This document shows positions 13,333 through 35,970 of a stretch of DNA of 64,000 nucleotides, piece by piece; position 1 is the first letter of the stretch; each line of letters starts with the position of its first letter. Under the pieces are notes generated by a model, which was not told the DNA's origin, did not search any database, and saw only the letters and a list, made by a program, of their open reading frames with translations. The DNA is taken from contig NZ_JAUCBM010000001.1 in assembly GCF_030362795.1 (NCBI RefSeq), positions 372,001 through 436,000 of the forward strand, given 5' to 3'. Source of the DNA: Pseudochrobactrum kiredjianiae. Lineage in GTDB: Bacteria > Pseudomonadota > Alphaproteobacteria > Rhizobiales > Rhizobiaceae. The translations under genes were made by a program, and so were the position numbers.

Positions 13333-14203
13333 TGCCGGTAAATTATTCTCCCGTCGTCTGAAAAGCGTGGATAGGGGACAGAGCCAGTCTGCGGTTACAG
13401 AGAGACCGGCTGTTCGCTGGTTTCTGACTGCAGTGGGCCTGTTATTCTTGGCTTTATTTATTGTGTTGCCGTTGATTGTGATTTTTACGCAGGCTTTTAG
13501 CAAAGGCACGGGCGCTTATTGGGATGCGTTGAACGATCCTGATGCGCTTTCGGCTATTCGTTTGACCCTGCTGGTGGCGGCGATTGCAGTACCGTTGAAT
13601 ATGGTATTCGGCATCGCCGCTTCATGGGCGATTGCCAAATTCGAATTTCGTGGCAAGATCTTTCTCATCACGCTGATTGACTTGCCGTTTTCGGTGTCGC
13701 CGGTGATTTCAGGGCTGGTTTTTGTGCTGCTATTTGGTGGCAACAGCCTGCTTGGGCCTTGGCTGCAATCTTATAATATCCAGATATTATTCGCAGTGCC
13801 GGGCATTGTACTGGCGACAGTTTTTGTGACATTTCCCTTTGTTGCGCGCGAATTGATCCCGCTGATGCAGGAGCAGGGCACCGGAGATGAAGAAGCGGCA
13901 TTGTCATTGGGCGCCAGCGGCTGGAAAACCTTTCTCTATGTGACATTGCCGAATATCCGCTGGGGGCTGCTCTATGGGGTGTTGCTGTGTAATGCGCGCG
14001 CTATGGGAGAATTCGGCGCAGTTGCCGTTGTTTCGGGTCGTATTCGTGGCCTGACCACGACAATGCCGCTGCATGTGGAGATGATGTATAGCGAGAATAT
14101 CGTGGCGGCTTTTGCCGTGGCATCGCTGCTGGCCGGACTGGCGCTGATTACACTTGTTTTGAAAACTGTACTGGAGATGCGCTTTGCGCATGACGGGGTC
14201 TGA
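13322..14203 (+). CDS. cysW: Sulfate ABC transporter permease CysW
   Basis: A 293-residue partner permease of CysT, with about six transmembrane helices and the EAA loop DEEAALSLGASGWKTFLYV. The CysW-typical GEFGAVAVVSGRIRG follows. The start at 13322 has GCAGGAG at a good distance; 13316 would be too close. The end is odd: the last codons (MRFAHDGV-stop) begin a 33-bp tandem repeat that continues past the stop codon (14177-14261), described separately. Confidence 0.94.
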   Translation: MAASAGKLFSRRLKSVDRGQSQSAVTERPAVRWFLTAVGLLFLALFIVLPLIVIFTQAFSKGTGAYWDALNDPDALSAIRLTLLVAAIAVPLNMVFGIAASWAIAKFEFRGKIFLITLIDLPFSVSPVISGLVFVLLFGGNSLLGPWLQSYNIQILFAVPGIVLATVFVTFPFVARELIPLMQEQGTGDEEAALSLGASGWKTFLYVTLPNIRWGLLYGVLLCNARAMGEFGAVAVVSGRIRGLTTTMPLHVEMMYSENIVAAFAVASLLAGLALITLVLKTVLEMRFAHDGV

Positions 14204-14261
14204 TTTGTAATGCGCTTTGCGTATTACAGGGCTTAATTTGCATTGCACTGGCATGAGGGTG
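14177..14261 (+). repeat. 33-bp tandem repeat spanning the cysW stop codon
   Basis: Copy 1 (14177-14209) holds the last eight cysW codons and the TGA. Copy 2 (14210-14242) starts with an identical ATGCGCTTTGCG and again runs into an in-frame stop (TAA). A weaker third copy (ATTGCACTGGCATGAGGG, 14243-14261) follows. Copies 1 and 2 match at 25 of the first 31 bases. It fills the cysW-cysA gap. Confidence 0.8.
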
Positions 14262-33653: not shown

Positions 33654-33690
33654 ATAAAAAAGCCCGCTTTTAAGCGGGCTTTAAGTTTTT
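33654..33690. terminator. Bidirectional terminator
   Basis: AGCCCGCTT (33661-33669) pairs with AAGCGGGCT (33672-33680). An A-rich left and T-rich right flank let it serve the acyltransferase gene (plus) and the converging RNase D gene (minus), whose stop lies at 33689-33691. Confidence 0.9.
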
Positions 33691-34309
33691 AAGCGTGGGC
33701 GAAGATGTCTTGTTCATCCCAGCCCATCAGATCGAGCTCTGCACGACTTGGCAGGAATTTGAAGCAGGCTTCAGCCTGTTTCTCACGACCATCGCGCTCT
33801 AAGCGATATTCCAGAACCTTTTTCAGACGATGCAGATAGAGAACATCGGACGCAGCATATTCAAGCTGCGCCTGAGACAGGTTTTCCGCAGCCCAGTCGG
33901 ATGATTGCTGCTGTTTGGAAATTGAAACGTCCAGCAATTCCGAGCAAATTTCTTTCAGACCATGGCGATCTGTATAGGTACGGGTGAGTTTCGAGGCGAT
34001 CTTGGTGCAGAAAACCGGCTGCGGCATCACGCCAAATGTATGCGCCAGCACAGCCAGATCGAAACGGCCAAAATGGAAGATTTTGGTGATCGAACGGTCT
34101 TTCAGCAGTTTGACCAGATTAGGGGCTTTTTTCAGCCCTTTCTCGATCTGGATAATATCCGCGGTGCCGTCACCCGGTGAGATCTGCACGACGCACAGGC
34201 GGTCACGCAGAGGATTGAGACCCAGCGTTTCCGTATCGATGGCGACGGAATCAACCTGATAATTCTCAAGATCAGGCAGATCGTTTTTGTGAACGCGGAT
34301 AGATGTCAT
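33689..34309 (-). CDS. Ribonuclease D-like 3'-5' exonuclease (exonuclease domain only)
   Basis: A 206-residue DEDD-family exonuclease. The metal-binding acidic residues appear in VAIDTETLGLNP, FHFGRFDLAVL and YAASDVLYLHRL (DEDDy type with Tyr). E. coli RNase D has about 375 residues with HRDC domains; this protein stops after the nuclease domain, a compact form usual in Rhizobiales. It probably trims structured RNA 3' ends. It is transcribed after, and in the same direction as, the M20 peptidase gene with an 83-base gap. Confidence 0.9.
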   Translation of the reverse strand: MTSIRVHKNDLPDLENYQVDSVAIDTETLGLNPLRDRLCVVQISPGDGTADIIQIEKGLKKAPNLVKLLKDRSITKIFHFGRFDLAVLAHTFGVMPQPVFCTKIASKLTRTYTDRHGLKEICSELLDVSISKQQQSSDWAAENLSQAQLEYAASDVLYLHRLKKVLEYRLERDGREKQAEACFKFLPSRAELDLMGWDEQDIFAHA

Positions 34310-34323
34310 TGAAAGTTCCGTAT

Positions 34324-34425
34324 CTTATTTATTTGAAAGTGCAGCCGAAATTCTGGCCTCACCTTGCGGCAAGAGTTGCAAGAATGCGAGCCTCACTTGG
34401 CGGCAAGAGCCGCCAAAATTCTAGC
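34324..34425 (-). repeat. Three 34-bp tandem repeats spanning the stop codon of the M20 gene
   Basis: Read on the minus strand, copy 1 (34425-34392) holds the last ten codons and the TGA. Copy 2 (34391-34358) and copy 3 (34357-34324) follow without spacer. Their own frames encode ARILAALAAK-stop, ARILATLAAR-stop and ARISAALSNK-stop. Copies 1 and 2 agree at 26 of 34 bases. The 34-base period puts each copy in a different reading frame. Confidence 0.85.
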
Positions 34426-35784
34426 CCATGAGCGCTGGCCTTTATGGAAAGAGGACAGCTCGTATTTTTCATTCGGGGAATGGATGCGGTCATCTTCAAG
34501 GCCGAAGCCGACCAGCAGGGAATCCATACCGAGGAATTTGTCGAAGTCACCGACGATTGGAATTGAGCCGCCCATGGCAATCAGTACCGCAGGGTTTGGC
34601 CATTCGTCCGACAGCGCCTGTTTGGCCTGTGTGACCAGTGGTGAGTCATACGAAAGCTGGATGGCCGGTGAACCACCATGCGGATGGAATTCCACGCGGC
34701 AATCAGCAGGCAGGCGGGCTTCAACGAATTTGCGGAAATTCGCACGGATTTTATCCGGATCCTGCTTATGTACGAGGCGGAAAGAAACTTTGGCGGATGC
34801 TTCAGCAGCGATCACGGTCTTGAAACCTTCGCCGGTATAACCACCGATCATGCCGTTGACTTCGGCAGTCGGGCGCGCCCATGTCTGCTCCAGAACACTG
34901 CGACCCTGCTCACCCGATGGCACGGAGAGACCGATAGGGCCGAGGAAGTTTTCAGGGGTACGGCCAAGGCCTTCCCATGATTTCAAAATCTGGCTAGGCG
35001 TTTCTTCCACACCTTCATAAAAATCTTCCACAGTTACGCGGCCGGTTTCATCATGCAGGTCGGCGAGAATTTTCGACAGTACATGCAGCGGGTTTGCAGC
35101 CGCACCACCGAAGAAACCGGAATGCAGGTCGCGGTCGGCGGCTTTAATGGTGATCTGCTCACCCACCAGACCACGCAGAGCAACACAGATCGCTGGTGTA
35201 TCACGGTTCCACATCGAGGTGTCACAAACCAGAGCAACGTCTGCTTTGAGTTCTTCTTTGTGGCTGTCGAGGAATGGCTTCAGCGATGGAGAGCCGGATT
35301 CTTCTTCGCCTTCAAAAAGAATAGTGACTTTAACCGGCAATTGGCCATGCACGGCTTTATAAGCACGGACAGCTTCAACAAATGTCATCAGCTGACCTTT
35401 GTCGTCGGACGTGCCGCGACCGGTCAGGATTTTGCGACCCGGTTCAATTTCTTTAGCGGCAGGGTCAAACGGGTCGTTTTCCCAGAGGTTCAGCGGATCA
35501 ACCGGCTGCACATCATAATGGCCGTAGAACAGGACATGGGGTGCGTCGGCTGTTGCGCCTTCATGATGGGCAACAACCATCGGGTGGCCTGGTGTATCGC
35601 GCACACTGGCATCAAAACCAATGCTTTTCAGATCTTCCACCAGCCACTCTGCGGCCTGACGGCAATCGGCCTTGAAAGCCGGATCCGTTGAAATGGATTT
35701 AATACGCAGAAGATCAAACAGATGATCGACACTCTTGTCGAGGTTCTGGTCGAGATGTTTCAATACAGGTTCAAGTGCTGACAT
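34393..35784 (-). CDS. M20-family metallopeptidase (dipeptidase)
   Basis: A 463-residue zinc peptidase of the M20/ArgE-DapE-carnosinase group. Metal ligands and base are visible: LFYGHYDVQP (His, Asp), GRGTSDDKGQ (bridging Asp), ILFEGEEESGS (catalytic Glu pair) and VCDTS; GMDSLLVGFGLEDDRIHSPNE gives the C-terminal His. GAGGG before the ATG at 35784 supports the start; upstream codons to 35907 are spurious. It probably hydrolyses dipeptides in the cytosol. Its 3' end carries an unusual tandem repeat. Confidence 0.92.
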   Translation of the reverse strand: MSALEPVLKHLDQNLDKSVDHLFDLLRIKSISTDPAFKADCRQAAEWLVEDLKSIGFDASVRDTPGHPMVVAHHEGATADAPHVLFYGHYDVQPVDPLNLWENDPFDPAAKEIEPGRKILTGRGTSDDKGQLMTFVEAVRAYKAVHGQLPVKVTILFEGEEESGSPSLKPFLDSHKEELKADVALVCDTSMWNRDTPAICVALRGLVGEQITIKAADRDLHSGFFGGAAANPLHVLSKILADLHDETGRVTVEDFYEGVEETPSQILKSWEGLGRTPENFLGPIGLSVPSGEQGRSVLEQTWARPTAEVNGMIGGYTGEGFKTVIAAEASAKVSFRLVHKQDPDKIRANFRKFVEARLPADCRVEFHPHGGSPAIQLSYDSPLVTQAKQALSDEWPNPAVLIAMGGSIPIVGDFDKFLGMDSLLVGFGLEDDRIHSPNEKYELSSFHKGQRSWARILAALAAK

Positions 35785-35970
35785 GTTGCCCTCATGATAA
35801 AACAAGCTTCGACTCGCAAAGCATGAATGAGTTCTAAGAATTCTGTTTGGTTTTAGCGTATATAGAAGGAGACTGTACAGGGAAGATGTTGCGTATTTGC
35901 GAGACAAAGGCCGAAGCCGGTTTCACTGCGGATAATGCTTTAAAACAAAAGACAAAGCTTATTTAAATCC

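Follow-up and report, generated by a model that had tools for sequence, protein, structure and literature searches.

The 3' end of an M20-family peptidase gene of Pseudochrobactrum kiredjianiae occurs three times in tandem within the window, by which we mean the whole 64,000-nucleotide stretch of DNA analysed here, and this raises the question of whether the additional copies serve the protein as spare C-termini or are remnants left behind the gene. All three copies are 34 nt long and lie head to tail and in register with a 34-base period, and 83 bases separate the M20 stop from the RNase D-like gene downstream (Table 1). The original prediction of three 34-bp copies of the M20 3' end, every one closed by a stop in the frame of that copy, proved right in its coordinates and translations, and copies 1 and 2 differ at eight bases, six of them synonymous and two non-synonymous, as it had counted. 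The M20 ORF as listed starts at 35907, a likelier ATG start lying near 35784.

Table 1. Features at the 3' end of the M20 peptidase gene (positions in the window)
Feature	Position	Strand	Description
M20-family peptidase gene	34393..35907	-	ORF; Pfam Peptidase_M20 (3.7e-34) and M20_dimer (4.1e-19)
Copy 1	34392..34425	-	Translated C-terminus ARILAALAAK; stop TGA at 34393-34395
Hairpin within copy 1	34397..34416	-	TTGGCGGC, loop TCTT, GCCGCCAA; 8 bp stem
Copy 2	34358..34391	-	ARILATLAAR; stop in frame +1; presumably untranslated; 26/34 bases identical to copy 1
Copy 3	34324..34357	-	ARISAALSNK; stop TAA; 23/34 bases identical to copy 1 and only 17/34 to copy 2; adjoins the flank that in relatives follows the single end
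RNase D-like 3'-5' exonuclease gene (downstream)	33689..34309	-	ORF; Pfam DNA_pol_A_exo1 (1.6e-40)

At log10 P <= -8 (periods 20-60) the 64 kb window holds 2 places, one of them the pair formed by copies 1 and 2; no place reached this level in any of three Markov controls. Tandem Repeats Finder at a score of 40 did not report the M20-end array. Copy 3 is weak as a repeat unit by itself; taken as a whole unit, its best match was the single-copy end of genome G002 (29/34, with 25/34 for copy 1 and 20/34 for copy 2), and with those of G005 and G006 it shared 23/34 bases, no more than copies 1 and 2 do (22-24).

Comparison of seven Pseudochrobactrum genomes, which runs between species as each is represented by one genome, revealed three copies in four of them (the window genome G000, G001, G003 and G004) and one copy in the other three (G002, G005 and G006). 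Copy 1 encoded ARILAALAAK in 4/4 of the three-copy genomes, and in G001, G003 and G004 copy 2 had no stop and the array fell 1 nt short of that in the window. The distance from the Trp codon to the start of the RNase D-like gene was 49 or 115-116 bp across the genus. The single-copy M20 proteins end in AALSQK or AALSKK and resemble the last copy in some three-copy genomes; by eye, copy 3 of G001 matched the single end of G005 except at 3 of 34 bases and that of G006 except at 2. The C-terminus of the M20 protein thus varies with copy number, be it by gain or by loss. A record titled Bacillus subtilis SK6B4 (JAHREI010000001.1, L034) was Pseudochrobactrum-like at the M20 locus, with 98% protein identity.

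The variation extends to the Brucella/Ochrobactrum genus, where 34 of the 35 genomes searched were matched (G062 gave no match) and carried one copy (13/34), two (19/34) or three (2/34). The distance from the Trp codon to the start of the RNase D-like gene was 42-47, 76-80 or 110 bp, i.e., in steps of about 34 bp, except in the genome with an inserted gene (G068, L166), the only one in which a gene, which we take to be methyltransferase-like, lies between M20 and RNase D. On a 47-row tree built without the repeat, a quick tree in which 13/44 inner branches are weak and the rows L166 and L107 were entered by hand as single-copy, the distribution of copy numbers requires at least 16 changes. The M20 end has the properties of a variable-number tandem repeat, as its units are in register and vary by whole units among relatives. 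No extra M20-end copy was seen by eye in more distant relatives (Phyllobacterium, Mesorhizobium, Rhizobium and others; L056-L113). In G048 (L123), a 69% complete genome, the last M20 codons are one base shorter and the frame is shifted, possibly by a sequencing error.

The repeats had initially been read as an error-buffering or frameshift device in which selection maintains copy 2 as a spare C-terminus reached by a +1 shift. In the window genome the +1 frame is indeed open from copy 1 through to the copy 2 stop, but this part of the claim does not extend beyond it (1/7 Pseudochrobactrum genomes); in the remaining six, the +1 frame runs into RNase D in five and meets an immediate stop in one. 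Programmed +1 frameshifting is recognised by an alternative frame and stop conserved among relatives, and here these were found in 1/7 genomes. The copy 2 stop is missing in the three other three-copy Pseudochrobactrum genomes and in 8/17 Brucella-genus pairs, which speaks against selection for a spare C-terminus, and 3/7 Pseudochrobactrum genomes manage without any extra copy, which speaks against the device as such. We regard it as hardly credible that copy 2 is a reserve C-terminus which ribosomes reach by a +1 frameshift. A start-stop mini-ORF that would pass ribosomes on to RNase D was also considered for the Brucella-type copy 2 (ATG GCG GCT ... TAA) and rejected as not conserved, since ACG or ATA replaces its ATG in L137, L139 and L127 and the stop is lost in 8/17 pairs.

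To place the M20 array among gene ends in general, direct repeats were surveyed in G000 (864 kb) and in G004, G005, G047 and G021 (400 kb of each), with genes represented by ORFs of at least 100 codons, taken longest first, and not by annotated genes. In the sampled DNA of the three Pseudochrobactrum genomes, good direct repeats crossed the stop at 15/1,328 ORF ends, and repeats of the same type were found at 6/6,640 positions inside genes, 2/1,328 starts and 15/1,399 intergenic tiles, the last representing about nine separate places (five in G000, four in G004 and none in G005). A mismatched-pair null gave about 0.2 stop-spanning repeats in all. The original prediction had made its case depend on repeats being commoner at stops than elsewhere; they are far commoner there than in gene interiors (p = 4e-8) but no commoner than in intergenic DNA (p = 1), which by its own measure tells against the device. 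A rate at stops equal to the intergenic one and far above that of coding DNA fits tolerance, as the gene stays intact when sequence spanning its stop is duplicated, and duplicated lengths not divisible by three are equally allowed; the periods modulo 3 were distributed 5/6/6 among 17 pairs. In an earlier scan with looser settings (60 against 150 bases) the contrast was weaker at low scores, with internal positions exceeding stops at scores 11 and 12; in 50 kb of E. coli with 45 ORF ends that scan gave no match at scores of at least 11. The load of stop-spanning repeats differs between lineages, two outside genomes having none at 655 ends (p = 0.004). Within the window, a second stop-spanning repeat with a 33-base period lies on the forward strand where a transport permease gene ends (14177-14242, Pfam BPD_transp_1), with an in-frame stop in both copies and the hairpin ATGCGC-TTT-GCGCAT in its unit.

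Other repeated ends, for which the names ETF-QO, Sua5, Fur, AroC and FolD are those we presume from the gene sequences, carried possible traces of exchange between species. In the ETF-QO-like gene, the silent copy of G004 equals the current end of G003 over 50 identical bases including downstream sequence, and the silent copies of the Sua5-like gene in G003 and G006 equal the current end of G000 over 35 identical bases. Identity between the last stretch of the ETF-QO-like gene of G004 and that of G001, G002, G005 and G006 climbs from 78-88% to 98-99%. No jump in sliding identity marked an imported tract in the M20 gene, and none was seen at the Fur-like end.

The differences between copies bear on their history. 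Across 18 pairs of M20 copies 1 and 2 (17 from the Brucella genus and that of the window), third codon positions hold 81/105 differences, and L140, L141 and L142 (indels) and L135 (a near-duplicate of L134) were dropped from these codon counts. A copy 2 simulated as free from birth accumulated about 45% of its differences at third positions; for 11 pairs selected by hand the observed 48/63 exceeded both the mean (27.7) and the maximum (39) of 400 runs, in a model where all rates are equal and transitions are not favoured. Of the differences between copies 1 and 2 in the nine bases that lie beyond the hairpin, 25/29 are at third positions, so the hairpin does not explain the silent pattern. The suggestion of a translated past for copy 2 therefore gains support, the excess of third-position differences going beyond that of a copy free from birth. 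The trend was weaker over repeated ends genome-wide, at 31/48 differences (p = 0.03), with the cognate stop retained in 15/17 pairs, a set that leaves out two gapped pairs and in which L212 is probably a chance match; at the permease end 3/3 differences are non-synonymous, against the silent pattern. The mostly silent differences suggest that the copies had often diverged as coding alleles before they were joined, or that they passed through the coding position in turn.

Hairpins are a further property of these ends. Perfect stem-loops with stems of at least 6 bp occurred at 6/15 repeated ends as against 63/1,303 other ends (p = 6e-5), and hairpins recur with both arms changed at the ends of the aroC-like gene and of an unnamed gene. 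Such enrichment and two-arm changes would be expected if the units were retained for hairpins formed in the transcript from M20 to RNase D, protecting or punctuating the mRNA or separating translation units. However, extra copies are lacking in 3/7 Pseudochrobactrum and 13/34 Brucella-genus genomes, the M20 hairpin sequence is absent from the single-copy Pseudochrobactrum ends, and strong stop-spanning stem-loops are similarly frequent in genomes without the repeats, which makes retention for an RNA role quite improbable. For the same frequencies, stop-spanning hairpins were discarded as a genus-specific trait: stems of at least 9 bp cross the stop at 7/696, 3/319 and 1/313 ends in Pseudochrobactrum and at 4/341 and 3/314 in outside genomes. 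A dispersed mobile palindrome of the REP or RIME type was likewise discarded, as the M20 unit is confined to a single place in its own genome (one perfect match and one with three mismatches). In G005 a 20-bp perfect inverted repeat crosses the stop of an ORF (L269 6897-7299, minus strand).

We consider it likely that the array consists of relics of duplicated or displaced gene ends which are kept by neutrality and do not form a device. The M20 array would then be a set of short direct repeats across the stop in which copy 1 alone provides the C-terminus, copies 2 and 3 being silent and presumably untranslated earlier ends. A hairpin-bearing gene end may have been duplicated, probably once and before the Brucella-like and Pseudochrobactrum lineages split, as both share a unit of about 34 bp; later gains and losses of whole units, which are observed, may have proceeded by slippage or by recombination with alleles of related strains. 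Hairpins provoke slippage and template switching, and this may apply to these gene ends as well. Such arrays would persist at gene ends because copy 1 retains the frame and the stop at any unit length, so that selection is blind to the array, in line with the survey. The copies may often have been diverged coding alleles already when they were joined, or may have moved in and out of the coding position. Against this reading, a unit of the same length in both genera is equally compatible with functional spacing, and the sharp enrichment in Pseudochrobactrum is left unexplained by it; the permease pair without silent differences, the lack of an identity jump in M20 and the distance of copy 3 from the G005 and G006 ends also count against it.

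As to how the copies arose, pure slippage, in which the gene end is tandemly duplicated and the downstream copy decays freely with no need for recombination between alleles, agrees with the head-to-tail units, the hairpins within the unit, recent exact copies at other genes and a slightly higher identity of copies within genomes (24.1/30) than between genomes (23.1/30), a value reached by 38 of 20,000 permutations. The excess of third-position differences over the simulation of just such a decay argues against it, and taken as the whole explanation it seems rather doubtful to us. In C-terminal displacement, an incoming allele recombines by homology within the gene and joins illegitimately near its end, so that the last codons of the resident are left downstream and former ends become layered. 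The M20 locus has the corresponding arrangement of an intact gene followed by former C-termini that are presumably silent; the mostly silent differences, the matches of silent copies to the current ends of sister species in the ETF-QO-like and Sua5-like genes and the rise in identity near the end of the ETF-QO-like gene of G004 fit as well, and the geometry agrees with published models (PMC5361080, PMC2935791). Yet the M20 breakpoints are nearly identical in every genome, which is unexpected from independent illegitimate events, the M20 and Fur-like ends show no identity jump, and a silent copy would match a sister end just as well after an array had contracted; we thus hold displacement to be possible and keep it with reserve. 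The broader view that Pseudochrobactrum genes hold layered fossil 3' ends, where incoming alleles displace the last codons, contraction revives silent ends and the C-termini of housekeeping proteins are exchanged behind the stop, is put forward tentatively, as it may well prove wrong.

Ordinary short tandem repeats of bacteria consist of head-to-tail units and shift in copy number by whole units. The M20 array shares both properties, but its units are diverged (at most 26/34 identical), straddle a stop and differ mostly at silent sites. In Rhs genes, former C-termini are shunted downstream, where they are silent and form arrays, according to Jackson et al. 2009 (PMC2935791); as at the M20 end, they lie behind an intact gene, and the order of copies differs between strains. 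The Rhs tips are long, mutually unrelated and laterally acquired, unlike the units here, which are about 25-36 nt of the end of a housekeeping gene (some periods being 54-82) and homologous to the current end. Sequential displacement is also described for type VI effector genes (Kirchberger et al. 2017, PMC5361080), and the mechanism proposed for it is homology-facilitated illegitimate recombination, a process treated in PMC3240628; homology anchors one end while the other is illegitimate, and the resident 3' parts stay downstream, as they would here. The effectors are, however, whole genes under diversifying selection, whereas at the M20 locus a few codons of a conserved enzyme are concerned, with no known advantage. 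Our literature searches brought up no description of tandem repeats that span the stops of ordinary bacterial genes, which does not prove that none exists. If displacement is true, the few dozen bases past a stop would record former gene ends and recombination, and conserved proteins would have a simple neutral route to new terminal residues. On the plain reading, too, repeats would accumulate at gene ends since the first copy shields the gene at any unit length, and codon-like sequence past a stop need not signal translation.

Some further ends are of note for their structure. In G003 the end of the aroC-like gene (L276) has up to five repeats at 31-base intervals, and its copy number differs in relatives (L272-L275, L277). 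An independent three-copy case is the Fur-like gene of G056 in the Brucella genus (L318), in which three near-identical hairpin-bearing units extend across the stop; seven other ends compared alongside it showed no repeat by eye. We rejected the possibility of a preserved Brucella-type end in the silent copy of the Fur-like gene, as the ends of the Brucella genus (VDIIVRLRRKxx) bear that copy no greater likeness. Behind the ETF-QO-like gene of G000 (L292, query bases 401-451) lies a dispersed element of about 50 bp; the query gave 16 to 41 matches per Pseudochrobactrum genome and, among the matches listed, most fell in bases 401-451.
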